A stretch of 64,000 bases of DNA, taken from contig JAIVFI010000020.1 in assembly GCA_025558095.1 (NCBI GenBank), forward strand, positions 372,001 through 436,000, written 5' to 3'. The notes beneath the pieces were generated by a model that did no database searches, had not been told where the DNA came from, and saw nothing but the letters and a program-made list of their open reading frames with translations. Every line of letters begins with the position of its first letter. Position 1 is the first letter of the stretch. This document shows, in pieces, positions 3,309-25,722 of this stretch. A program made the position numbers and the translations under genes. The stretch comes from Hyaloraphidium curvatum. Taxonomy: Eukaryota; Monoblepharomycota; Hyaloraphidiomycetes; Hyaloraphidiales; Hyaloraphidiaceae.

Positions 3309-4390
3309 AACAAGATGCGGTGCACGAGCACCTTCCGCCGCCGTCCGTCGACTTTGCCGCTCGGGAGCCGCCGCGCCAGCTCTTCGTAAAAGATGCCATC
3401 GGATTGGATCAGCATGTGCTCCGCAAAGTGTGCCTTCGTCACGAGGTCGCCAAAAGCCGCATTCCTGATGAGGCGCAACGGCGAACCGTCGGCAAGCCGC
3501 TGCTTGCGCAGCCAGTCCGTACGAATCATGGCCGCGGCCATGTCGATCTTTGTCCTCGCAAATTCGACGGGGATGTAGTGAGACGGGCCAGCGCCGGTGT
3601 CGTCCGCGCCCCCTTTGGGAATCAGGTTCTCCCCCTCTGCGAACTTGGAAACAAAGTCGAAACCAATGAGGTCCGCCGGGCCCTCTTCCCCGCCGTGCAG
3701 CCACGGCTTGAGGAGGTCGGCGAAGCCCATGCGGAACAAGTTGTCCGCCGAGCTGATCACCAGGTACTTGCAGTCCGTGTGCACCCCGCCCGTGTTGTTG
3801 CTCCCCAGAAGCGTGTCGAAAATTGCGTCCACGGCAGAGTAATCCGCCCCCATGAATTTGTAGATGCAGGTGTCCCTGTTGTGGCCCGAATTGGTGTTAC
3901 CCAACCCGAGCGTTGTGTTGCAGTACGCCGCCACGGTGGCCTGCTGTTCCGGACGCACCACCGAGAGCAGGTGCCTCTCCACGTCCGCGTATGGAACGTC
4001 GAGGGCGTGGGCGAAATCCGGGCAGCCGAGAATGGCGTTCACGTGGCGCGCGTGCGCGGCGGCGTCCCAGCGCGGACCGTTCGGTGAGCCGGTGTCTGCG
4101 GCTAGCACTTTAACCCGGACGCTCCCATGTGCCAGCGAGGAAGCGTAGGTCGAGAAGTATGGGGCGTAGCCGTGGAAGCCGCGGGCGACGACGCACACCG
4201 TGTTTGGGTCGTCGCGCTGCCACGAGGCGCACGGCGGGACCGCGTCCCTCGGCCGCAGGGACGCGGGCGAGAAGTCGGCGTGCGCCGTCATCCCCGGTTC
4301 CAGCTGCGAACGCAATCCGCCCGCGTGCGAGGCGACCAAGACCGCGGCGCCGAAGAGCGCCACGACCTGGAGAAGGCCGCGACCCCGCAT
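3296..4390 (-). CDS. Orphan type II/secreted lumenal protein, possible glycosyltransferase-like
   Basis: 364-residue intronless protein that I do not recognise. It starts MRGRG followed by a hydrophobic segment (LLQVVALFGAAVLVASHA), a signal peptide or signal anchor. The body has several Asn-x-Ser/Thr sites and even-spaced cysteines typical of a lumenal protein. The stretch YLVISSADNLF resembles an A-type glycosyltransferase strand ending in an acidic metal-binding motif, but the DxD is not clear. Context: it converges on a GT61-like gene, and an FkbM methyltransferase lies 2.8 kb away, which suggests glycan work in the secretory pathway. That is inference only. The Met at 4390 was chosen because the signal segment follows directly. 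Confidence 0.55.
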   Translation of the reverse strand: MRGRGLLQVVALFGAAVLVASHAGGLRSQLEPGMTAHADFSPASLRPRDAVPPCASWQRDDPNTVCVVARGFHGYAPYFSTYASSLAHGSVRVKVLAADTGSPNGPRWDAAAHARHVNAILGCPDFAHALDVPYADVERHLLSVVRPEQQATVAAYCNTTLGLGNTNSGHNRDTCIYKFMGADYSAVDAIFDTLLGSNNTGGVHTDCKYLVISSADNLFRMGFADLLKPWLHGGEEGPADLIGFDFVSKFAEGENLIPKGGADDTGAGPSHYIPVEFARTKIDMAAAMIRTDWLRKQRLADGSPLRLIRNAAFGDLVTKAHFAEHMLIQSDGIFYEELARRLPSGKVDGRRRKVLVHRILLVHQ

Positions 4391-5017
4391 AGTTGTGCGC
4401 CGCAGGCAGATTCGGTCCAGCGATATCCCGCCTCGAATGGCCGGGAGTCCGGGAGCGCGCGAGGGATCAAGTCGTGCGTCTGCTTGGCCTGATCCGGTCG
4501 TTCCAGACCACCCCTCGGGCCGAAATAATGCCTCGCTTCGGACTGGCCCCGTAAAATTCGGAGGAAAGTGGTAGCTTCGCTGGCGGTCGGACTCCCCTTC
4601 TTTTCCTCCTCTTTCTCGAGTGATCCTTCCCGGGGCTTTGGCAAGTTCGTGGGCCTCAATATGCCAGCGCGAAATCAATGACCGATGGACGCCAAGCTCC
4701 TTCACCAGGCGCAGCCGAGCTCCTCGCCAGGCGCAGCCGAACCCCGAATCGCCTTCCGCACTGCATCCACCAGCTTGCTCTTTATAGTGTAAGCTCGTCT
4801 GCCCATGTGGGCCGGTGGAGGACTCAAAGTTGCTTCTTGCCGCAAAAGACGGTCGACCACAACCTTCATACGTTAGCGCGACCGGCCGCAATCATCCATC
4901 CGACGTAGCTAGCTGTATCTGCGGCACGATCACTGCTCTTTCCGTAGCCTTCGACGCGGATTTGTGTGCTGTCTTCGGGGGGCGGGTTGTTCGGTCGGGC
5001 CGATCCAATCGACCAAA
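4391..5017. other. Intergenic, divergent promoter region
   Basis: 627 bp between two divergent start codons. Reading frames here lack any recognisable domain. Nothing else seen. Confidence 0.4.
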
Positions 5018-7144
5018 ATGTCGCTCTTCGAGGCTGCGGCAGAGGGCGACCAGACCCGCCTGCTCTCTCTGATCGATAAGTCGAAACAGAGCGTCAAGGA
5101 GCGCGACGCCCGGGGATGGACGGTGCGTCTCCGGGAACGCGGCAACGCGTCCGCCGCCCGTCTGAACGTCGGCTCATAGCCGTGATTCTCCTCCCTGGCT
5201 GCTCGCGGAAACGGTTCCGGTGATATCGCACGATGTGGTCCCCGGCACTGGGCCTATCCCCCGCGATTCTCGCGTCTCCCCTCGTCCGTCGTCGGCAACT
5301 TCTGCCGATCCGTCTCCCGGCCACCCTCCGTCTCCCTCCTTCGGATCGCCATCGGACCCGATCACGCCCGCCTCCACAGGCGCTGCATTTTGGCGCCCGC
5401 TACGGGCACATGGAGGTGGTCAAGATCCTGCTCGACCGCGGCGCCGACCCCGCCGCGGCCAACAATGAGGGCCGCACGCCGTCGGACCTCGCCTCCTTCT
5501 GGGGCCACGCGCCCGTGGCGGAGCTGATCGCCAAGAAGGCCGGCACCAAGCCTCCGGCCAAGCCGACCATCAGCCTGGGGAAACCGGCGGGGCCGGCGGC
5601 GGGCGGGGCCAAGGCGCCGCTGATCTCGCTCAAGGGCGGCGCCAAGGAGCAGGCCAGGGGCGTCGCGACTGCTGCTTCCGCCCCCGCGGCCGCTCCTGCG
5701 CCCGCCGCGGCACCTACCATCCGTCTCGCCGCGCCCCACGTCAACTTCTTTGCCGGATCCCCCCTGAAGCGGTCAGCTCCAGCGCCGTGCTGCCTTTTGC
5801 TGTCCTCTCACAGTGCTCCGTTCCAGGCTGAGCGAGAAACGCGCGGACAAGGCCTTCATCTCCTCCGTCCTCCAGCACCCCTCCTCGCGCTACGTCCTCT
5901 TCCGCAACCTCTCCCCGCTCTTCGCCCCCACCCCCAAGGGCAAGCCCTTCGAGCTCGCCTACTACTCCCACTCGGACGTCGGCGAGTTCCTCGACGTCGA
6001 CGGCACCAAGGGGAAGCAGTGGGCTTTCCTCGGGGTCGACAGGGACGACCCCGTGGTGTTCCCCGACGGGCAGGAGCTGGGGAGGCCGTACGTCTGCATC
6101 GACGTCACCCCCGTCGAGGGCGAGCCCGAGACGCCCGCGCTCAAGAAGCTGATCGCCGGTGCGTCCTTTGCCGCGCCGGACCGCTCGTCCCCTCACCCTT
6201 GGTCCCGCAGCCGCCGAATCCCGCGGCCAGAAGTTCAACGACTTCCGCCCCGGCGCCTTCCGCCTCCCCCCCCGCGAGGCCTCGGTCGTCGGGCAGGCGC
6301 GGTCGATCCTGGACTGGAACCTCAAGAACCCGTACTGCTCCGCCTGCGGGCGCAAGACGTCGAGCCAGGATGCCGGGTTCAAGCGGATCTGCGCGCCGCC
6401 GGGACCGGGGGAGAAGCCGTGCATGGCACACAACGGCGTGCAGAAGTGGGTCATCGATTTGCCGGGGGGGAGCGCGCGCTGATCGGCGCAACGGTGCAGC
6501 TTCGTGTACCCGCGGCTGGACCCCGTGATCATCGTCGCCATGGCATCGCCGGACGGGCAGAAGCTCATGCTCGGCCGCGGCAAGTCGTGGCAGAAGGGCT
6601 TCTTCTCGTGGGTTCCCCATCCGCGCCTCGCCGCGCACGCTGACGCTCCGGGACAGCTGCATCGCAGGGTTCATGGAGGCCGGCGAGTCGATCGAGGACA
6701 CTGTGCGGCGCGAGGCCAAGGAGGAGCTCGGCGTGGAGGTGGACAGGATCGTGTACCACTCGTCGCAACCGTGGCCGATGCCGGCGCAGCTGATGATGGG
6801 CGTGGTGGCGCGGTGCAAGGAGGGGCACACCGAGTTCAAGCCCGAGGAGGACGTGGGTCTCCGCCTGCGCGCGAGAGAGTCGTATGGGGCTGACCGATCG
6901 CCCCGTTTAGGAACTCGCCGAGGCGCGCTGGTTCACGCGGGACGAGATCCACGCCGCGCTGGCGCTCTCGACCACCAACGACGCGCGCACGCAGGGCGCC
7001 CCGAAGCCCGCGGACGGGTCCAGGCCAAAGGTGGACTTTTTCCTGCCGCCGTCGTACGCGATCGCGCACCAGATCATCAAGGCGTGGGCGGACGGGAACA
7101 TCGACCTCGGGTCGGGGCCGGCGGCCGCGGCGGCCAAGTTGTAG
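5018..7144 (+). CDS. Ankyrin-Nudix NADH pyrophosphatase, NUDT12 homologue
   Basis: Predicted exons 5018-5122, 5380-5771, 5827-6158, 6211-6445, 6500-6607, 6657-6852 and 6911-7144 give 533 residues with all phases consistent. The N-terminus carries about two ankyrin repeats (GWTALHFGARYGHMEVVKIL), then an Ala/Pro-rich linker, then the NUDIX-like N-terminal domain. A zinc ribbon follows (YCSACG...C...C), then the Nudix box GFMEAGESIEDTVRREAKEE, matching GX5EX7REUXEEXGU, with SQPWPMPAQLMMG just after it as in the NADH-specific subfamily. Family knowledge: NUDT12/NPY1 hydrolyse NADH and NAD-capped RNA, in peroxisomes or cytosol. The C-terminus (…AAAAKL) ends in KL and is not a strict PTS1. Introns are 49-58 nt except the first (257 nt). 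It converges on the FkbM gene with 30 bp between stops. Confidence 0.88.
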
Positions 7145-12454: not shown

Positions 12455-12674
12455 TCGGGTGCTGGGCGGCGGTGGAAGCCACGGAAACGGGGTGCTGGGT
12501 CGCGGATCGGGAGCTGTACGGTGGTTTCATCTCGAATCGAGTGCGTTTGTCCCCCTTGACGGCGTCCGCGTCTCCCGGGGCGAGGCCCGGTGTGGCGAGG
12601 CGTGATCGCCGCAGCCGCAGTTCGCGCCGTCCGCCAAACATGCCAGCCCGCCCGCACGCCCCCGCGGCGTAGCG

Positions 12675-15600
12675 ATGACCTCGCGGATCCCGGTGGCGAT
12701 GGCGGTGCCGCCGATGGGCGCGGCGGGCGGGAACGTGGTCAAGGTCATCCGCGGCGGGGGGCGCAAGGCCAGCGCGGACCTGACCGCGGCCCCGCCGACC
12801 GCCAACGCCCCCGCCGGCCTAAACGGACCAGGCGGCGGCTTAAACGGACTGGGCAATGGGCCCGGTGGCGAGTCGGGGGGGATGGGCGGCCCGCCTCCCC
12901 TCTCTCCCCTGCAGTCCGCCCTGCTGCGGGCCGTGCGGCGCGAGGACGAGGTTGCCGCGCACCGCGCCGCCCCGCCGCCCGACTCGGCAACCGGCTCGAC
13001 GCTCGTCGACGACGCGCACGCGTCGCTGGGCGACCTGCTGGACGGCACCGACTGGGCGGCGCCCGCCGTCAGGGCCGCCCTCAGCGACGCAAACCACGTC
13101 GGCGGCCTGCTGCTGCTGTGGGCCGCCATGCGCGGGCACTCCCAATTGGTGAACATTTTGCTGCAGTGCGGAGTATCGCCCGATGCCTGCGTGCCGTGGG
13201 TGGCAGGCAACGACCCCGCCGCCGCCGCAAACCCCGCAGACGCCGCGCGGCTGGCCGACCTCGTCGAGGAGGCCGAGTCGCGCCAGCGCCCGCTCATCCT
13301 CGCCGCGCAGCACGGCAAGCTGCAGGCCATGCGCGCCCTGCTGCTGGCAGGCGCTGAGGTCGACGCCGCGGACGCCCTGGGCTGGACGCCCCTCCTGCGC
13401 GCCGCCGCCGACGGCCACCCAGACGCCGTCGCGCTGCTGCTCTCGCACCGCGCCTCGCCGCACCTGTGCAACTCGGACGGCATGTCGCCGCTGCACGGCG
13501 CAATCCACGGCGGGCACCTGGCCTGCGCGCAGATGCTGCTGGCCGCAGGCGCCTCCTACTCCATCAAGGACAATTACGGCACCACCCCCACCCTGCTCGC
13601 CCGCGCAGAGGACTCGCTGCCCCTGGTCTCGCTGCTGTGGCACGCCGCCCTGTCGCGCAACGACCCCTCGGTCCTGGCCGAGGTCGACCCGGCGACGCAG
13701 CGCACCCCGCTGCACGACCTCGCCCGCCTGAAGGCCCCCCTGGAAATGTTCGCCCCCCTGTTCCCCGCCAACCCCACGCAACCCTCCCCCGTCACGGTGC
13801 CCGACAGCACCGGCACCTCGCCGCTCGTCTACGCCGCCCTCTCGGGCTCGGCGGAGCTGCTCGCCCTGCTCCTGACAAAGGGCCTCCCGCTCTTCCCGCA
13901 CCCGACCATCGACCGCGCGCTCCCCTCCACCGTGCACCTCCTCAGCCAACTATCGCACCCCTCGCCGCTCCCGGACGTCCCCGCGAAGCTGCGCGAGCTC
14001 GCCCGCGCCGACGCCGCCGCGCGCGCCTCGGAGCTCCGCTTCCCGAACCCGGGCGCCGTCAAGCGCGCCGTGGACCTGCGCAGCGGCGCCGTCGAAGCGC
14101 TGCTCTCGCTCCTGTCGGCCTGCGGCATCGTGCGCGAGAGCAGGGCGCTCGTGCTCGCGGAGCTCGAGGCCGTGCTCCGGGGGATGGAGGCCGAGGTGCG
14201 GCGCGTGCGGGCGGCGAGGGAGGGGATGAAGGAGGCGGCGGGCGGCGGGGCGCAAGCGAAGCTGGCGGAGGCGTGGGACGGCCTCGGCAAGGGGCTGGGG
14301 GCGCTGGGGGGGTTGGTGGGGCGCGAGGCGGTGGATGCCGCGCTGGGGAGGGCCAGGGGGGAGGTGCTGGACCTGGCGAGGAGGAGGGCGGGGGACGCGG
14401 CGAGGCAGGAGAAGCGCGCGCGGGTGCAGGAGGACGGGGTGCGCAAGCTCGGGCACGCGGTCAAGCACGCCGCGCGGTGGGCACGGGCCGACCTCGGGCG
14501 GTGGGAGGCCAAGGCGGCCGAGGTCGGCGGAGCGCTTGACGAGGCGCTGCGGAGGGGGAGGGAGGTCCTGGGGAGGTGCATCGGGGCGGCGGATGCGGCG
14601 GGGAGGGAGGCGATGGAGAGGATCGCGGCGCTGGCGGAGCAGGACCCCGAGGAGAGCGGGGAGGGCGGGATGGAGGAGCTCAAGCGGCTGCAGGTGCGCT
14701 TGGAGGAGAGCAGCAAGATCGGGGTGTGGTGCAGGGGGAAGCTCAAGCGGCTCGAGAGGGTGGCGGCGGCAAGGAGCGGGGCGCCTCTCCCCGAGGCGGC
14801 GCATCCGGCTCCCCAGCAGGACGGGTGGGCGCCCGAGAGGACGAGGGGGGTGCCGATGCCGCCGAGGCAGACGGGGCCGGTGTGGATACAGGCGGGGGCC
14901 AAGGGCAGGGCGGGGGATGCGGCGCCCGCGGGGAATGGGGCGCCGGCACCAGTGACGCCGGCGGCGCAGATGGCACCCGCACCGGTGCCGCCCGCACCGG
15001 CTCCCGCACCTCAACCGCCGCCGGCAGCGGCAGCGGCGCGCACGACGGAGGACGCGGCGGTGCAGGCCCAGGCGGCCCGCATGGCGCAGGCCACCGCTGC
15101 GGCGCAGGGCAACCCCGCCGCGGCGACCCCAGCGCAGACGGCCGCGCAGCAGGCCGAGTTCCAGAAGCAGGCGAGCGGGACGTGGAAGCTGGTCAAGAAC
15201 ATGGTGACGGCGTTCGGGAACAAGGCGGAGCAGGCGCTGGACTCGGTCGCCGACATTTTGCTGCCGTCGGCGCCAAAGTCGCCCATGCTGGTGGGCACCG
15301 CGTCGCCGCTCAACGGCACCTCGACCTCGTCAGCGATGCAGTCGGCTGCGGCGAGGACCGCGGACCCGCAGCCGGCCGCCAAACCGCCTCCCGCCCCTGC
15401 GAGCGGCCCTCCGCCGGCCAACCCCACCCTCGACACGACCTCCTCCTCCATAGCCATCGGCACCGCACTGTCATCCCTCCCCAACCTGGACGTCACCGCA
15501 TCCACCGCTGGCCTCGCGTCGGCCGTCTCGGCGGGTGACCCCAACAGGCCGCGGCTGCCTTCCAAGGTGCGCAAGGGGCCGCTGCCGCCCGCCGACAGGC

Positions 15601-15923
15601 CGCTGGGGGTGTTCAAGCCGCCGTCGGTGGGGCAGATCGATTCGGGGTTGCCTGCTCCTGCGCAGCCCGCCCCAGCACCCGCACCCGCGCCGCCTCCCCC
15701 CGATCCCGCGCCCGCGCCGGCCCCCCCGCCGCCGGACGCCGAACCCCGCACGGACCTCGACGCTGCCGACGCGCTGGAGCGCAAGGTGGCCGCGCTGCAG
15801 CAGATGATGGACTCGGGGGCCGGGTCGCCGTCGGGGCAGTCGGGCAGCCCGACGCCGGCGCGCAAGGGGACGCTGCCGAGGCGGAACGGGCTGAAGAACG
15901 TGCTGGACAAGTACGGCTTGTAG
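12675..15923 (+). CDS. Large ankyrin-repeat protein with coiled coil and Pro/Ala-rich tail
   Basis: Intronless 1082-residue protein. Ankyrin repeats run from about residue 140 to 404, the clearest being [39 protein letters not shown] and [20 protein letters not shown] in tandem. Residues about 470-690 are Glu/Arg/Ala-rich and predicted coiled coil. The rest is Pro/Ala-rich with a short conserved-looking C-terminal peptide ([19 protein letters not shown]). Such architecture fits a scaffold or adaptor; no enzyme domain is seen. GC content in the tail is very high, and the absence of introns over 3.2 kb is unusual among neighbours. Specific function unknown. Confidence 0.78.
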
Positions 15924-16007: not shown

Positions 16008-17900
16008 TCAGTGGTCCAGGATCCGCAGGTTTCCGGTAACGATCTGCAAAAGGAACGAATGTCAGTGCACTTGCACGTGCGAGAACGATCCGCGTGCGTC
16101 ACCTTGTTCTCGAGGATCGAGCCCGCCGGGATGTCGATGCGCTGGCCGTGAGTTGCGACAATGATGACCGTGCCCGCGAGAACGACCTGGCCGTGGAACC
16201 AGACGTCGCCCGAGACGGTGAGGTGATCCAGATCGAGGATGTTGGGCGGAGACTCGAAGCTGGTGCGGAGGCAGAGGTAAGGGGCCGTGCTGCTGGCGGA
16301 CGAGAAGCCCACCGCCTATCATAGTCTGCGATCTTCGAGAACTCGTTCCCCAGCTTGATCACCGGCGTCGATGAAAATGGCCGTGTGGGGTTGATCACGA
16401 GCTGCCCGTGACGCAGCGAGTACAGGCCTTCGGATTGCGCGAGGAGGAGGTCCGCGGTGTTTTTCACTGGCACGAAGCGCGATCGCGGGACGAGGATGCC
16501 GCCGGACTTTTCGAACGCCCGGATCGCTGAAGCCATGGCGGTCTCGAGCTGTGGGGGCGGTCGTTGAGGTGCGCCAATCGGCAGCTGGCCGATCTGATGA
16601 CTGCCCACCTGAATCACGGCCTCGCCCGAGTCCGTGGTCTTGGGATTCTCGATGATGTCGAGCTCCGGACCGTGCGGGTGGCGGTCGAAGAGATCCTTGA
16701 GCGCCTTGAGGTTGACCCAGAGATTGTTGGTGTTGAACGTGGAGAACTTCTTGACGGAGTAGCTGCGAAAGCAGAATTCTGTAAATCAGTCGGAACCGCA
16801 CCCGATCGCCCGACCCACAAGTCGTTCCTGTGAACCAACGCCACCTGTGCCACCTCCAATAGGCGTGTCTGCCCCTCGTACTCGATCAGGGTGCCGCCCT
16901 TGATGTCGCTGCGCGTCTTTGGGGTCATCTCGAGGAGAAAGTCCGCCGATCGCGACTCGCACAGGTGCTGCAGGATCCGGAGGTCCACGGTAGCACCGAG
17001 GTTATCGATATCTGTCGCGATCAATATGTGATGACAACGTGGCAAGCGCGAAAAAGAGAGAGAGACCCACTGGAGACAAAAACCCATTCCTTCCCTTCGT
17101 CGAGCAAGCTGTCCAGGATCCCGCTGCGCACCATAGAGGCCCAAATGTCGCCGTGCCCGGGAGGGTACCAATGCTGCTTCGTGCCCGCCGTGATCTCGGC
17201 GGTCGCGGGAACCGGGAGCAGCGACTCGCGGGAAATACGCGGAGCAATTGCCTGGTCGAACGTGCGGATGTCGACACCCTCGTCGCCTTCAAACTTGCCG
17301 ATCAGCTTCGAAGTCGTTTCCGCGGTGTTGAAGGAGTTCATGAGCACCAGCGGGACCTTGACACCATACTTGCGGGAAAGATAGCGGACCTGGCCGGCGA
17401 TCTCTTTTAGCGAGGCACACCACGAGGCAGCTGAAGCCACTCTAGCCTACCTGCGTCACCGCCAAATCCAAAAACGAGCTTCCGTCGCGGACTTCGATCG
17501 CGCTTTTCGGTCCCTGGAGGCCCATAGACGTTCCAAGTCCGCCATTGAGCTTGACGATGGCCAATTTGGAGAGCAGCTGTGGAATCCTCGCTTCCGCGAC
17601 CTCCGGTAGCTCTTCCAGCTTGACCATCTCGTCCATTCGCTGGCCGACCACCCTGTCCCAGTTGAGCTTCGTCGACCTGGTCCTCTGCCAGCGCACAAAC
17701 AGGTCGTAGAAGGCGTCCATCTCCGGCGCGAACCAGGAGCGGTCCCGCTCGGGAGCCGTGGAAATGAGCTTGTCGAGCTCGCGCCTCAGGGCGTGGGCCG
17801 GCCCCTCCGAGGAGAACCCTTCTGCCATCAGCGAGGGGTCGCGGCTGATGGCGTTTCCATTGGGGGCAAGGCCCTGTTCGGTCGTGCGGCCTCGGTCCAT
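16008..17900 (-). CDS. UGP1: UTP-glucose-1-phosphate uridylyltransferase (UDP-glucose pyrophosphorylase)
   Basis: Seven predicted minus-strand exons: 17451-17900, 17071-17401, 16819-17011, 16609-16762, 16313-16548, 16103-16259 and 16008-16043, giving 518 residues (family about 500). The nucleotide-binding loop is [32 protein letters not shown], the uridine/metal region [24 protein letters not shown] and [10 protein letters not shown] are all in family order. The C-terminal left-handed beta-helix has [12 protein letters not shown] and ends GNLRILDH. It makes UDP-glucose for glycogen, cell-wall glucan and trehalose. Introns are 49-60 nt. The start is uncertain by some 24 residues (17828 is the alternative Met). 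Confidence 0.93.
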
Positions 17901-18183
17901 GTCGATGTTTGGGTGAGCGACAGCCCGCGCTGAGTCATCGCTCCAACTGTTGGGCCATGCCCGTCGGGGCATGCACGTCGTGCCCATCTCCCCACAGGAA
18001 GGACGGCGACTGGGGTCGTTCCCGCCGCCGCTGAAAGCCAAGGGCAGGCGGGGAGATCGAAAAAGCCACGCACGAAGCCCGTACCGTGCCGTCGAGCTCG
18101 CGTTGCACACCACCTTGCGCCACCGAAAAGCCCGATCCCATTGTTATAGCTACTGCGCACGGTACCTACCGCATCCTGGCAGA

Positions 18184-18549: not shown

Positions 18550-20272
18550 TCATGGGCCCCGCAACCGCGAGAGCTCGTCCTGCAAATACACGAACGATGG
18601 CCGCTCCACCGGATCCTCGCGCCAGCACGCCTCCATCATCCTCCAAACCCGATCATCCACCCCGCCTGGTCTCTCGGGCCTCCGTCCCTCAACGCAGACC
18701 ATAAACATGACCGCCAGCGCCCCCGGCGCTCCCGCGAAGGGGTACTGGCCCCGGCTAACAACCTCGTAACACAGCATCCCGAAGGACCACACGTCGGAGG
18801 CCGGGATAGCCTTTCCACGCAGTGCCTCAGGCGCCATGAATGCTGGTGTTCCCGCCAGCATGACCTCGGTGCCGCCGACCGTTGTTGTCCCTTGCCGAAC
18901 CTTGGCCAGCCCGAAATCGGATACCGCAGCCCTCCCCCGCCCATCCACGAGCACGTTGGCCGCCTTCAAGTCCCCGTGCACCACCCTTCGCAAATGCAGG
19001 TATGCCATTCCCGTCGCAACGTCCACCAGCGTCCGTAACCCAATCGCCGGATCCCACCCTGATCGGGCCATGAAGGCGCGAAGGTTGCCCCCCTCAGCGA
19101 CCGCGCTCACGAGCGCCGGTGGGTCCATGCAATATCCAAGCAGCGGCGCCACGTTTGCGTGGGCAAGTCCCGACCAGGCGCGGACCTCGCTCGAAAGGGC
19201 AGCCGCAAGCTCGTGCGGAGGTCCGCGGAGAAGCTTGACTGCCGCGGGGGCGCCGCGGATGGTGCCGCGGTACACCGTGCCGGAGGAGCCGGAGCCAAGG
19301 GCTTGCGAGGAATCGAAGGTGATGGCGGAGGAGGGCACAAGCAGGTGGTCCGCCCCAGGAGAGGGGAGTCCTGCGAGGGATGCGGTGCGCGGCAACGCCC
19401 GCACGTCCACGAAAGGCGTTGGGGCTGCGGCCGCGCCTGATTGCCAGGCAACGCTCGGTGCTGCCGTGGTCACATGCGCAGGAGACGCCGGCTCTGCTCC
19501 GGGCGCGTATGCGACCCCTGGCGGGGGTTCACTGCAAGTGACCGGTCCATCCGCCTCTCCCATGCCATCTTTCTGTGCAGCCCGCCTTTTCTTGCCCCTC
19601 CACAAGACGAGCGCGGTAACCAGCGCCGCGATCACCAGCACACCCAGCACCGCGCCAACCACCGCACCGGTGGGGAACCCTCCCCCATCGCTGGGGTTCT
19701 GCGCGGCCGCGGCCAGGGCGGCGCCGGAGGCGGGAGTCGGTTCCGTGTCCTCTGCCGGTGTCGGCTCCGATGGAGCGGCCGCCGAATCCGAGGGAGTTTC
19801 CTCTGCGGGGGTTTCCTCGGCGGCTCCCGAGCCTGCAGCGTCCGTCTCGGTCGGACCGACGGTCGGCGTGCTTTGTGCCAGCGCAGAGCACAAGTCTTTT
19901 ACGTCCTGGAGGGCCCCGAACTGCGATTTGTCCGCGTCTGCAGGGCATCGTTGCATCGTTGCCCGTCAGCGCGAATCTCGGTACCCACAACGGTCGAATC
20001 CCACCCTCGCACTCCGCGTAGCACTGACTCAGTGTGTCCTGCTGGTGGTCGTTGCACAAGCACACGTTCGCCGCCTCCCCGGAATCGAGGCAGCCGGTGT
20101 AATCCGTGGAAAAATGCTCGCACCATTGCGACGTGCAGGATCCCACGGCCTGTTGCCGTGCGACTAGGCGGGACAGCGGTGTGCTGCCTTCAGACAATGG
20201 CGCCCAGCGGTGAGGGAGGGACCGCAGGGCGTTCCCTTCGGGAAACGGGCCGCGGGCGCGCAGAAGGGGCAT
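18550..20272 (-). CDS. Receptor-like TKL protein kinase with CFEM-like ectodomain
   Basis: Exon 2 (18550-19937) and exon 1 (20005 upward) join over a 67-nt intron. The joined N-terminal part has eight cysteines spaced C-x4-C-x9-C-x9-C-x-C-x10-C-x3-C-x17-C, close to the fungal CFEM pattern. A Ser/Thr/Pro/Glu-rich stalk, one membrane segment (AVVGAVLGVLVIAALVTALV) and a basic stop-transfer follow. The kinase has LGSGSSGTVYRG, AVKLL, HGDLKAANVL, DFGLA and APE, so all catalytic residues are present; it is TKL-like. An extracellular sensor signalling through an intracellular kinase is the inferred role. The start at 20272 is provisional: no signal peptide is seen in this frame, so a further 5' exon is likely. 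Confidence 0.8.
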
Positions 20273-20628
20273 CTCTGCGTGGTGGCCCCGGAAACGCGGG
20301 ATTCCGCGTCCTGCCCGCTTCTCTCACAAAAAGAATGCCGCCGGACGCTTTTCGGCGCGGATCAGGAGGCCGACGGGCCCGATTCGAAGTCGGCTGACGG
20401 CGGGATTTCGGGGACCTCCGACCTTGCCGCACACCCGCCCACCTTGGCGGCTCGGGCGCACATCGCACTCAGCATCAGGCATGTCACTATTCAAGCAGAA
20501 AACGAGGAAAGAAAAAGAGCCCATCCACATCCTCCGGTCTCCGTGCCTCAAGTCTTCGAACGGTCGCTGAAGCCGACGCGAAAAAGAATCCACCAAATCC
20601 TCCGGCCCCCTTGCTTGCCTCAAGTCTT
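20273..20628. other. Intergenic region between two minus-strand genes
   Basis: 356 bp. It probably holds the promoter and possibly the missing signal-peptide exon of the receptor kinase. It also contains the outer copy of a duplicated gene end (see 20529-20647). Confidence 0.4.
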
Positions 20629-20647
20629 CTAACGGTCGCTCAAGCCA
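20529..20647. repeat. Imperfect direct repeat covering the 3' end of the DUF4211 gene
   Basis: About 50 bp is present twice, 68-72 bp apart: 20529-20575 and 20597-20647. Both begin ATCCTCCGG, share GCCTCAAGTCTTC and end CGGTCGCT[G/C]AAGCC. The inner copy contains the last codons and stop of the minus-strand DUF4211 gene (20629-20631). In the outer copy the stop triplet has changed. Confidence 0.8.
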
Positions 20648-23127
20648 ACCGCGTGCTCGAACTTCCCCTGCACGCCTCCGATCAATCTTTCAACCTTCCC
20701 CTCCCGCTCGAGAGTGTCCAGCACCAGCGTGGTGATCGCGGCCCAGTGGTCGCTGAGAAAATGCCTCTGCCCCTTTTCGGCGATCTGCTCGCGATCCTTG
20801 GCGTACCCGCCGTAGCGCACTGGATCCCGTCTGTAGGCCGCCCAGAAATCGCGCGCGCGATCGGTAACCTGGGTGCGCATGCGGAACAGCGCGTGCGCGA
20901 GCTCGTGGTACCGCTGCGCCTTGTCCTTGCAGAAGCTCCCGAAAGCAAACGGGCCTGCGGGCGGTGGCTCGGCACGGCCCTGCCCATCCTGCGCGTTTCG
21001 GCCCAGCTTGCGCTGCTCGGTGCGCGGTTCGAACGAGAAGGCATCGTATGGTTCGCCGTGGAACGACACGGCGAATGCAATCGGCTGCAGCTTGCCGCAG
21101 GCCGAGCACTTTTCGCGGTGGTCGCTCGTCGAGACCGAAGGCTGCGCCGTAAAGATCGGAAACCAGTCCAGCGCCCGCACCAGATCCGACGGCCAGCTCG
21201 TCTCCGGCACCATCTGCTTCCGCTCGATGATTTTGTCCAGCACGAGCGCGAGGGGCTGATAGAACTCCTGCAGAGGACCGCTGCCGTGCATCTCGCGCTT
21301 CACTTGCGCGGGAAAGTCGGCCGGGTGGAAGTAGGAGCTGACGAAGTAGGGAACGACGAGGGCCAGGGCTTCGTCGAACGTCGTCACGGGGACAAAGCTC
21401 GGCTTCTTCGGGCGACCGCTTCCGCGGGGCTCGTCGTCGTCGTCCACGACGAACCCGCTCTCCCACCGGTCCAGGTCGACGCCCGTCACGTCTTCGCCGC
21501 TGTCAGACGAGCTTCCAGACGACTCATGCTGGCGACGCCCAACCGGGTGAGAACCCTCGCGCTTCGCCTCGCGCCGAGCGCGGAGCTCCGCGAGCCCGGC
21601 GCGCTTCTCCTCCGCATCCCTGCTCATGGCCGTGCGCGGCGACCTCAGCTCGCGGGTCGGCGATGCGCTGCGAGCGTCCCTTTGCTGCGCCGGCCTGACT
21701 CCGGAAGGCCGCTCTTGGCGCCGGTCTGAGCCCTGCCTCTCGCGGTCGCAGGAACGGCGGTCCGGGCTCCGGCGGTCGCGATCCCTCGGTGCTTCCCCGC
21801 GGTTCCGTTCGCGGTCGCGGTCCCCAGTCTTCCTCTCCGCTCCCTGCACGCGTCCGCCCGACGGGCCCGAGCGCACGACCTCGTCCCTCTTCTTGGCGGC
21901 CGGCATATCCGTGAGCCTGTCGCTCCTCACGTCTCTGGGGGCCACGATAAAGTCCTCGCCAGAGGAGGCGTCGCTGGACCTGCGGCCGATCGCGCCGAGC
22001 TTCTGCGGTATCGGAGCAGGAGACTCGATGACGAACGTCGGCCTCGCGGTCTCGAACTCGACCGCGGCCCTGGGTTTCTTGGCCGACCGACCGCCCCTTT
22101 CGGGCTCGGAGTCGGACTCTTCCTTTGCGCCCGTCTTGCGCGCGGTGTACCGCGGCTTTTCCTTCTCCTTCGGCTCCTTCGGTGCCACGTCGGCGGACAG
22201 CGCCACCCGCTTCTTCAGGCTCCACTCCGATCCGCCCATCTCCGCGGCCACGGACAGCGGCGGCAGCTTCGGGGCGCTCGGCGGGGCAACCACGATCAGC
22301 GAGGCGGCGCTCTTGCGCTCGGGCTGCGGCGACGCAGTGCGGTTCGCCGGGCGCTGTCCGTCCGCGGGAGATTGCTGGGCACGAACAATGGTGGACACCG
22401 GGTGCACCGTGGCGCGCACGGGATCCTCGACGGCTCGCTGTCCGCTCCTGGCTTCTTTGCTCGCTTTCGAGGAGGCAGTCCGGTCCTTGGCTTCGCGGTC
22501 CTTTCTCTTCGGCCGTGGAGCACTCGAATCGTCGCTCGCCGCATCTTCATTGGCGGCTACTTTGCCGGTTGCTGCTTTCGAGCGTTGGGCCAGCGGCACG
22601 GATTCGAGTTCGCTTTCGCCGAGGTCGAACGGGTCCGAGTCGGAAGAGGGCTTCGGCTTCTTCTTGAACCGGAGCTTCTCGATCGGCTGGCCGAGACCGA
22701 GGTCCTCGTACGTCTTCCTGCTCATCATATGGTTCCGGAGCTTCGTCACGGCGCGGAGCTTGCACTCGTCGTCGGAGTCACTGATCTCAATGACCACCTC
22801 CAGGTGCCGGTCCGGTCTCCAGAAAAGCTTCTCGCTCGCGGGCTCCTCCCCGGCCGGCAAAGGGCTGCGCGCGAGCCTCTCCGTCGAAAGCAGTTTCCTG
22901 GAGTCGTCCACGAGCTCGATTTCGACGACAACGCTCTTGCTCGGACGCGTGCGCGGCGTTGCCGGGGAGCCTTCGAGCATGCCCGCGTCCATCTTTGCAG
23001 CGGCGTCCGCGGGTCTGCCCGGGCGAGCGGGTTCGGCGGGGGACGCCTCCCCGGCCTCCCCCGACGAGACGCTCCACGCGTCCGCGTGCGGCGGAGCCCT
23101 CCCGCCGTCCACGTCGTCGAGCGACAT
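20629..23127 (-). CDS. DUF4211 domain nuclear protein
   Basis: Intronless, 832 residues. The first ~570 residues are low-complexity, rich in Arg, Lys, Ser, Glu and Asp, with several nuclear-localisation-type clusters. The C-terminal ~230 residues match DUF4211: an acidic entry (WESGFVVDDDDEP), FDEALALVVPYFVSSYF, ALDWFPIFTAQPSVS, a CSACGKLQPIAFAVSFHG zinc-knuckle-like motif, and helices with RYHELAHALFRMRTQV. The family is mostly fungal and animal, nuclear, and of unclear function, likely chromatin or transcription associated. The stop lies in a direct repeat. Confidence 0.8.
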   Translation of the reverse strand: MSLDDVDGGRAPPHADAWSVSSGEAGEASPAEPARPGRPADAAAKMDAGMLEGSPATPRTRPSKSVVVEIELVDDSRKLLSTERLARSPLPAGEEPASEKLFWRPDRHLEVVIEISDSDDECKLRAVTKLRNHMMSRKTYEDLGLGQPIEKLRFKKKPKPSSDSDPFDLGESELESVPLAQRSKAATGKVAANEDAASDDSSAPRPKRKDREAKDRTASSKASKEARSGQRAVEDPVRATVHPVSTIVRAQQSPADGQRPANRTASPQPERKSAASLIVVAPPSAPKLPPLSVAAEMGGSEWSLKKRVALSADVAPKEPKEKEKPRYTARKTGAKEESDSEPERGGRSAKKPRAAVEFETARPTFVIESPAPIPQKLGAIGRRSSDASSGEDFIVAPRDVRSDRLTDMPAAKKRDEVVRSGPSGGRVQGAERKTGDRDRERNRGEAPRDRDRRSPDRRSCDRERQGSDRRQERPSGVRPAQQRDARSASPTRELRSPRTAMSRDAEEKRAGLAELRARREAKREGSHPVGRRQHESSGSSSDSGEDVTGVDLDRWESGFVVDDDDEPRGSGRPKKPSFVPVTTFDEALALVVPYFVSSYFHPADFPAQVKREMHGSGPLQEFYQPLALVLDKIIERKQMVPETSWPSDLVRALDWFPIFTAQPSVSTSDHREKCSACGKLQPIAFAVSFHGEPYDAFSFEPRTEQRKLGRNAQDGQGRAEPPPAGPFAFGSFCKDKAQRYHELAHALFRMRTQVTDRARDFWAAYRRDPVRYGGYAKDREQIAEKGQRHFLSDHWAAITTLVLDTLEREGKVERLIGGVQGKFEHAVGLSDR

Positions 23128-23975
23128 CGCGCGGCCGGGCGGGGCGAAGGAGGCGCGGCGCTCGCTTTGAGGGGGACGAGTGTTTGCGAGTTGAATCCCG
23201 CTTGACTACGCGCAACTCCGTCTCGAGACGTCGGCGCATGAAAGCACGGCGCACGCGATGGGCTCATTCTTCCGCGGCTTCTACTACCCGACGCTGATGA
23301 ACTCGGTCCTCTCGCGGGCCGGACGTCTCCCCGTTCTATGCACTTCCCATCTCTCGTCCTGGTCAACGGGGGCCTGACGGCGCTCCGCGTAATAGAAAAG
23401 GTCGAGGATTGGAATCAGATCATCAAGCGATGGAGGACCTGCTCTTGAGCTTGGAAGTGCTTGCTCTGAGGGTGGATGCTTTGACCGCTGCCACAGCAGC
23501 GTGCACTGTCATCAACAAGCAAGAGCAATGGACGGCAACAAGACGATCTTTCGGGACTTCGCATGCTTCGTCACCGTGAGGGACAATGGGGCGCCACGAG
23601 GCTGGAGGATCGCTGAGGTTTCGCGGATAGGAAGATGAACCCGGGCTGAGGGGTGGACGACCGAGGATGCGTGGAAGGAGGGCGGGGCAGTACCGGGAGC
23701 GAAGCTCTGATTTTGCCGTGAACTTTATCGGAGATCTCCGACCTTTTCTGGTAGAGAGTTTCGTAACAGAGCACCTTCCAACGAGGTCGACGGGATGCTG
23801 TGCGACGACACCGCCACACCTCCGACCTTCCGCGGAATCCCGCCCGCCACACTTCGAGTCCCGGCAGTACGACCTTCAGCCGGAAGGCTAGGCAATTCCA
23901 CCTTATAGCCTAGTTTGCGCGGCGAACGATGGGACCGTACAACGCACCTCAGCCTGAACCTCCGCGCCCCGAACC
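23128..23975. other. Intergenic, divergent promoter region
   Basis: 848 bp between divergent starts. Two short plus-strand frames are present, 39 codons from 23258 (begins MGSFFRGFYYPTLMN) and about 49 codons from 23430. Neither has an identified homologue, so neither is called as a gene. Confidence 0.4.
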
Positions 23976-25722
23976 ATGGCCTTCGAAAACTACCTCCGCT
24001 CGCTCCTCTCGTCCCCGTTCCGCCGGAAGCGAATCGAGATCCTCGTCGCCGAAGCCGGGGAGCTCAAATTCAAGCGCAGCCTGGGACTCGCGGACCTCTT
24101 GGCGCTCGGCGTCGGCGGCATCGTCGGCGCCGGCATCTTCTCGCTCCCCGGCATCGTCGCGGGCCAGGATGCTGGGCCGGCCGTCATCGTTTCCTACGTT
24201 CTCGCGGGTTTCGTCGCGTGTTTCGCGGCCCTCAGCTACTGCGAGTTTGGCGCCATGATGCCCGTCTCGGGGTCGGCCTTCAGCTTCGTCTATTCGACCC
24301 TCGGCGAGCTGCTCGCATGGATCGTTGGCTGGGATCTGATCCTGGAGTACCTGATTGCGGCGGCGGCCGTTGCTGTCGGCTGGAGCGCGTATCTCCAGTC
24401 CTTCTTCGTCGACGCTTCGGGGGGGCGGATCGCGGGATTCTACGTGAGTTGCTCGCGAGTTCTACAGCGACTTCGCTGACGGCTTCCAATCAAGTACCCG
24501 TTGGTCAACGCCCCGTTTGCTTGGGACGAGGCTGGCTACGTCACCAGGCGATGCAACGGCCCCGACACGACAGCACCGGGCTACGAGTGCGGCATAATCA
24601 ACCTCCCCGCCGTTGCCATCTGCCTCGCCCTCACGGCGTGCCTCGCCTTGGGCAGCAAGGAGACCGCGCTGCTCAACAACGTCGCCGTGGTGCTCAAGAT
24701 CACCATCATCCTCGTCTTTGTCTTTTCAAACGTGAAGTTCATCGAGCCCGCAAACTACGTCCCCTTCGTGCCCCCGAGCGAAGGCGGCAAGTTCGGCGTG
24801 CACGGCATTTTCAAGGGTGCCGTCACGGTCTTCTTCGGCTTCCTGGGCTTCGACGGCGTCACGACCGTCGCGCAGGAGGCCAGGAATCCGCAGCGCGACC
24901 TCCCGATCGGCATTCTGGGCAGCCTGTTCGTCGCGACCGTCCTCTGTAGGTATTTCGCACCCGCATCCGCAAAGTAGTTCTCCTCACGTGACCCTCCGCT
25001 GGCCTGCAGACATGGCCGTGTCGGCCGTGATGGTTGGCCTGGTGCCCTACCCGCAGCTCAACACCGCCGCTCCCATGAGCGTCGCGATCGACGCCACCGG
25101 CCTCACCTGGCTCGCGGCCCTGACCGATTTCGGCGCGCTGCTGGGGCTCGGCACCGTCGTGCTGGTCTGCATCATGGCCCAGCCTCGGATCCTCGCCGCC
25201 ATGGCGCGGGACGGCCTGCTGCCGTCGCAGTTTGCACGTGTGAGCGAAAAGAGGGGCACGCCGGTGGTGACGACGCTCGTCTGCGGCGCGGCGGCGGCGA
25301 TCATGGCCGGTCTGCTGCCGATCGACTTTTTGGCGAGCATGACCAGCGTGGGGACGCTGATGGCCTTTTTCCTGGTCTCGGTCGCGCTGCCGATCAACCG
25401 GCTCATGTACCCGGACGTCGAACGGCCGTTCCGCATCGGGGGCAAGGGGAGGTTCGGCGACGTCTTTGCCTGGATGTGGTGTATGATCGGTGCCGCCCTG
25501 TGCATGGGGCTCCTGGTCGTCTCTTCGATCGGGGCGACGCAGATCATCTACCGCGTACTCTTCTGGGACGGGATCGGCCTCGTGTTGTACCTGCTCTACG
25601 GTTCCTGGCACTCGAACCTGGCCAGGAACCCGGAGCACAACGCGGAGCCGGACAAGCACCCGGCAATCGCGGCCACGAAGGATAGCGCCGCCGAGGAGGG
25701 CAAGTCGCCGGTGGAGCTGTGA
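23976..25722 (+). CDS. Cationic amino-acid transporter (APC superfamily, CAT-like)
   Basis: Exons 23976-24443, 24495-24945 and 25010-25722 (introns 51 and 64 nt) give 543 residues. The N-terminal GVGGIVGAGIFSLPG is the APC substrate-binding loop in TM1. ALSYCEFGAMMPVSGSAF, AWIVGWDLILEYLIA and GFDGVTTVAQEARNPQRDLP are classic CAT motifs (TM2-TM3 and TM6-TM7). About 12 membrane helices are evident, with a short polar C-terminus. It likely imports basic amino acids at the plasma or vacuolar membrane. Confidence 0.9.

Follow-up and report, generated by a model that had tools for sequence, protein, structure and literature searches.

A predicted receptor-like TKL-type kinase of Hyaloraphidium curvatum and its modular family of membrane-kinase paralogues

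Introduction

The reverse strand of the window analysed here, a 64,000-nucleotide stretch of the genome of Hyaloraphidium curvatum (contig JAIVFI010000020.1), carries at positions 18550-20272 a gene that raises two linked questions: whether a freshwater fungus encodes a receptor kinase of the kind familiar from plants and animals, and whether the cysteine-rich segment ahead of the kinase belongs to the CFEM family. The species is placed in Monoblepharomycota, and a database protein attributed to it (P0046) agrees with the genome at 99% and 98% over two stretches of a single locus. An earlier note on this DNA, made from the letters alone, had leaned towards yes on both, describing a CFEM-like ectodomain with a possible role in sensing haem or surfaces, fused to a transmembrane TKL kinase. 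Haem binding is a property of some CFEM members.

In the available excerpts of a 72-genome study, no receptor-kinase architectures are found in fungi and hybrid histidine kinases are the only fungal group resembling receptor kinases (PMC6733946); those differ from the PF07714-type kinase described here in kinase fold and chemistry. A second source states, in the portion at hand, that leucine-rich repeat (LRR) receptors are almost entirely absent from fungi and that LRR-kinase receptors are lacking (PMC2939053). The CFEM domain has a published consensus motif with defined cysteine spacings and P, A/G and D positions and, according to the sections available of the survey that gives it, occurs only in Ascomycota and Basidiomycota and is reported absent from the chytrids surveyed (PMC4530338). 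Among the matches listed in the open-licence PMC literature, neither a receptor-kinase repertoire in Hyaloraphidium nor a CFEM-kinase fusion was recognised.

The neighbouring genes in the window are of varied function. On the same strand as the kinase gene lie an upstream neighbour with a DUF4211 match (20629-23205, E = 2e-07) and a UTP-glucose-1-phosphate uridylyltransferase gene of several exons with UDPGP matches (16099-18143), whilst an ankyrin-repeat protein (12606-15923) and an amino-acid permease gene of at least two exons (23958-25722) are encoded on the forward strand. A pair of short direct repeats, of 34 nt at 91% and 22 nt at 82% with spacings of 72 and 68 nt, lies at 20525-20649, at the 3' end of the upstream gene.

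Gene structure and predicted protein

As far as the gene can be read, exon 1 (20005..20272, reverse strand, as are all features of the gene) starts at the first in-frame ATG (20272) and is followed by a predicted intron of 67 nt (19938..20004), which has a GTGGGA donor, a branch-like CTGAC motif inside and an acceptor end CCTGCAG/CAG. Exon 2 (18550..19937) carries the last cysteine, a stalk, a membrane helix, the kinase and the stop codon. Removal of the intron joins an eight-cysteine segment to the stalk, a single membrane helix and a TKL-type kinase, and on this predicted splice the intron length and the cysteine spacing are as first proposed, namely C-x4-C-x9-C-x9-C-x-C-x10-C-x3-C-x17-C, the C-x-C being CLC. 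An alternative frame-preserving intron of 64 nt (19921..19984, GTACCG...TCGCAG) would yield C-x18-C at the end of the segment.

In log-odds of codon usage, with 8,507 codons from the same genome as the training set, the frame of exon 1 is preferred between about 20130 and 20005 and that of exon 2 from about 19937 onward. Within the intron a third frame scores slightly above zero, by no more than 0.16 per codon, and upstream of about 20130 the coding signal of the exon-1 frame fades. For comparison, ten paralogues carry an intron of 51-61 nt at one and the same conserved position of the kinase (an eleventh candidate, at L022, was dropped by a stricter motif). Seven of these introns begin with GTGGG, one of the seven with the exact GTGGGA of this gene, five contain CTGAC, as does the intron at 19938-20004, and the longest is 6 nt shorter than that intron. 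The predicted 20005/19937 splice is thus supported by codon bias and by paralogous introns.

The stalk (19678..19887) is 70 residues long and rich in Pro, Ala, Gly, Ser, Thr and Glu, which together make up 85% of the stalk plus the next few residues; no N-glycosylation sequon occurs in the ectodomain or the stalk. It leads into the membrane helix FPTGAVVGAVLGVLVIAALVTALVLW (19600..19677), identified by hydropathy rather than by a trained predictor, which contains a GxxxGxxxG motif and is followed by the basic run RGKKRR. Stalk and helix together give Pfam matches to Podoplanin and MGC-24, both below the cut-off. The protein kinase domain (18571..19311) matches PF07714 at E = 1.1e-47 compared with 1.1e-32 for Pkinase, so that its TKL placement is one of profile scores rather than of a kinase tree. 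The domain retains the glycine loop, the lysine, the αC glutamate, a catalytic loop reading HGDLKAAN, and the DFG, APE and CW-x6-RP motifs; because all these catalytic motifs are present the kinase is apparently active, and it belongs to the non-RD class. By hydropathy, a single helix with a basic inner flank separates the outer domain from the kinase, as in receptor-like kinases.

The anatomy of the gene, with its spliced cysteine segment, stalk, helix and kinase, is therefore confirmed at the level of the predicted protein, and with it the part of the earlier description that concerned the stalk, the membrane helix, the apparently active TKL-type kinase and the single-pass receptor-kinase layout.

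A repertoire of membrane TKL-type kinases

A query consisting of the helix and kinase matches the 31.9-Mb genome at least 125 times with E ≤ 1e-5, a figure obtained from the best candidates, which were scored, and in which multi-exon genes and duplicate contigs are counted more than once. Among the 29 best other places, nine of which (L024-L032) were viewed with a flank of 1.5 kb only, 15 have a membrane helix upstream of the kinase, 13 detected by script and two, L017 and L018, on visual inspection. A single open frame spans the helix and the ATP-binding lobe at 13 of the 15, and GxxxGxxxG is found in 12 of the 15 helices, as it is in the helix of this gene. When the helix-to-lobe part of one paralogue is used as the query, seven more places align from the helix onward, counting those not yet included whose alignment starts within the first three residues of the query, with contig copies (C48 of C30) dropped by eye. 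At least 22 places besides this gene therefore have a membrane helix before such a kinase.

The outer domains vary among the paralogues and include RCC1 propellers, a STIG1-like domain and stretches without a Pfam assignment, and in several paralogues a hydrophobic leader precedes the outer domain. RCC1 repeats are better known from inside cells. Twelve places, counted by eye, have these repeats on the same strand as such a kinase and no more than about 2 kb upstream of it, and the outer part of L034 matches the RCC1-like domain of Pfam at E = 7.8e-103. L034, L036, L037, L038, L039, L047 and L030, among others, have RCC1-type propellers before membrane TKL-type kinases, many with hydrophobic leaders. 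At L048, an open frame (3441-5399 of that locus) encodes a cysteine-rich outer part with a match to the STIG1-like family, named after plant stigma proteins (E = 2.6e-10), before a similar helix and kinase lobe. The outer parts of L041 (3399-4034), L042 (3484-3786) and L052 (3455-4243) contain cysteines and are mutually similar by eye. For L042 and L052, Pfam gives nothing up to E = 0.1, and the three are possibly a new ectodomain family. Other members of the kinase family have, by eye, ankyrin repeats instead of a helix before the kinase.

The catalytic loop is readable at 24 of 30 places, with HGD at 20, HSD at three and HRD at one; the HRD arginine is missing from 23 of these 24 loops, which makes the kinase family almost wholly non-RD. 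A metagenomic protein (P0045) has a leader, RCC1 repeats, a helix without GxxxGxxxG and a kinase in one frame. As leader and kinase share a single frame there, the layout is no artefact of exon joining in the present assembly.

These data lend support to the idea that the gene is a fungal counterpart of the receptor kinases of plants and animals, since the same genome holds many more receptor-kinase-like genes.

The eight-cysteine ectodomain and the CFEM family

The eight-cysteine segment, which runs from C1 to C8 across the intron (19888..20137), has no Pfam match above threshold, with ESF1 as a sub-threshold match (E = 0.97; 10.2 bits, where the cut-off is 24.1), and no relative was found. 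With a query from ectodomain to helix, 7,996 candidates out of 5.8 billion proteins were scored, none of them a relative at E ≤ 0.001, and none was found elsewhere in the organism's own genome at E ≤ 10, where the two candidates scored were both the same gene. A search of the PDB likewise found no relative, a result of little weight because a yeast CFEM control had no PDB match either. For the contiguous exon-1 part of the segment AlphaFold gives an uninformative model, with a pLDDT of 53.5. The segment is probably a small domain, perhaps with four disulfides, held outside the cell on a mucin-like stalk.

Assuming the predicted splice, the ectodomain shares with CFEM proteins (PF05730, for example yeast Ccw14) its eight cysteines in the order C, C, C, CxC, C, C, C, with the C-x-C in the middle, and five of its seven gaps fall within the published CFEM ranges. 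To call the CFEM signature matched almost throughout is nonetheless generous. The agreement fails at C1-C2 (4, not 3), at C7-C8 (17, not 15-16) and at the P, [A/G] and D positions, and the strict published motif finds no match in the ectodomain. CFEM proteins further differ from this gene in that here a receptor kinase follows. When three versions of the protein were compared with Pfam-A, PF05730 gave no match up to E = 10 (the filters of HMMER may drop weak matches), compared with 1.7e-12 for the yeast Ccw14 control. A search of the organism's own genome for PF05730 gave no match, to which no weight is attached because its 14 controls were silent as well. A CFEM profile was trained on 21 non-redundant domains taken from 44 Ccw14-type proteins and is hence narrow and representative of yeast-type CFEM only. 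Against it the ectodomain scores 3.4 bits without filters, a value that 62 of 500 shuffles with fixed cysteines and 14 of 500 full shuffles also reach, whereas all 44 Ccw14-type domains, training set included, score at least 85.6. Across 376,662 residues of six-frame translation from the window and 20 loci, a relaxed seven-cysteine pattern matches this gene alone; as the pattern was picked after the gene had been seen and shuffled sequence yields 0.35 hits per scan, the spacing alone is unusual but weak evidence, and no proof of CFEM kinship.

CFEM membership, examined by Pfam search, strict motif and shuffle tests, is thus not supported. With it falls the suggestion that the protein senses haem or surfaces, which is left without a basis once these tests fail and the published survey confines the domain to Ascomycota and Basidiomycota (PMC4530338, in the sections available). 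Were the CFEM claim true, a haem- or surface-binding module would be coupled to a kinase.

Alternative readings and the 5' end

The ectodomain could still be a true but very diverged CFEM, making the gene a CFEM receptor kinase able to sense haem or a surface. The identical cysteine order, including the CLC, and the five gaps in range would fit this, and the narrowness of the profile leaves room for a very remote kinship, but the silence of PF05730 beside a strong yeast control, the failed strict motif, a score that shuffled sequences reach and true domains far exceed, and the reported lack of the domain in surveyed chytrids (PMC4530338, same sections) make it improbable. The further claim that the module is an ancient relative of CFEM is equally improbable.

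The remaining alternatives concern where the gene begins. An ATG lies within the proposed intron, near the start of the exon-2 frame (open from 19965), and a gene finder could pick it to give an intronless stalk-helix-kinase protein with exon 1 outside the gene. This is very unlikely, given that coding bias in the exon-1 frame reaches the donor, that the intron bears splice signals typical of introns in this genome and that the eighth cysteine meets the other seven only through splicing. A larger, though still small, share of probability falls to a protein that is membrane-anchored and no surface receptor, either because its 5' part has been lost or because it is not exported, in which case the cysteine segment would be no ectodomain. 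The upstream signal peptide that the earlier note asked to look for was not found in the open frame of exon 1. When models with one intron further upstream were scanned, a single hydrophobic leader outside the upstream gene's own coding frame came up, MWMGSFSFLVFCLN (20489..20530, reverse strand, ATG at 20530), between that gene and exon 1. It is the sole candidate for the role; its start overlaps one copy of the short repeat pair located at the 3' end of that gene, and none of the single-intron models scanned gave a convincing intron linking it to exon 1. The dwindling of coding bias upstream of about 20130 points the same way. Against this, leaders are present in paralogues that share the helix type, the eight cysteines and a Ser/Thr/Pro stalk suit an outside location, and a signal exon may lie behind a longer or second intron, the scan having covered single introns.

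Discussion

On the preferred reading, which is likely, the product of the locus is a receptor-like kinase of TKL type that crosses the membrane once and belongs to a large modular repertoire in H. curvatum. The splice-compatible architecture, the helix, the intact kinase motifs and the paralogues of the same layout are present in the sequence; counted against the reading are the missing signal peptide, an ectodomain for which the searches found no relative, an intron 6 nt over the longest compared, and the lack of GxxxGxxxG in P0045 and three paralogues. By analogy with other receptor kinases, the outer domain would bind a ligand, the glycine-zipper helix may help to bring receptors together, and the kinase domains would then phosphorylate each other or partner substrates, passing the signal into the cell. 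Secretion, disulfides, pairing and ligand sensing are all things that we infer from the sequence architecture. Non-RD plant kinases can be activated without activation-loop phosphorylation, and the missing catalytic-loop arginine suggests, by analogy, that activation here may likewise be independent of it.

The closest counterparts are the TKL receptors with RCC1 ectodomains in the same genome and in P0045, which share with this gene the kinase family, a similar helix and a stalk before the helix, and differ in having an RCC1 propeller outside and, in several, visible hydrophobic leaders. Plant receptor-like kinases likewise combine an outer domain, a single helix and a TKL/Pelle-type kinase; their outer domains are different, and the likeness drawn here is one of layout. 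Some plant immune receptors are also non-RD. The receptor-like TKL kinases of the oomycete Phytophthora infestans, for which 99 membrane kinases, all TKL, are given in the accessible part of the report (PMC3019232), resemble the present family in being lineage-expanded and in combining a membrane helix with diverse outer parts; oomycetes are not fungi, and the likeness drawn is again one of layout.

The repertoire is a more interesting result than the CFEM claim. On balance, and by a small margin of confidence, Hyaloraphidium and its relatives appear to have independently evolved a plant-like modular system in which dozens of TKL-type receptors cross the membrane once, mostly by a glycine-zipper helix, and carry outer domains that can be exchanged; in this system the eight-cysteine ectodomain would be a lineage-specific ligand-binding module. 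Some two dozen or more receptor-like TKL-type kinases in a freshwater fungus would correct the picture of fungi as organisms without receptor kinases, would show such receptors arising again in another kingdom, and would make a simple system for studying what they sense.
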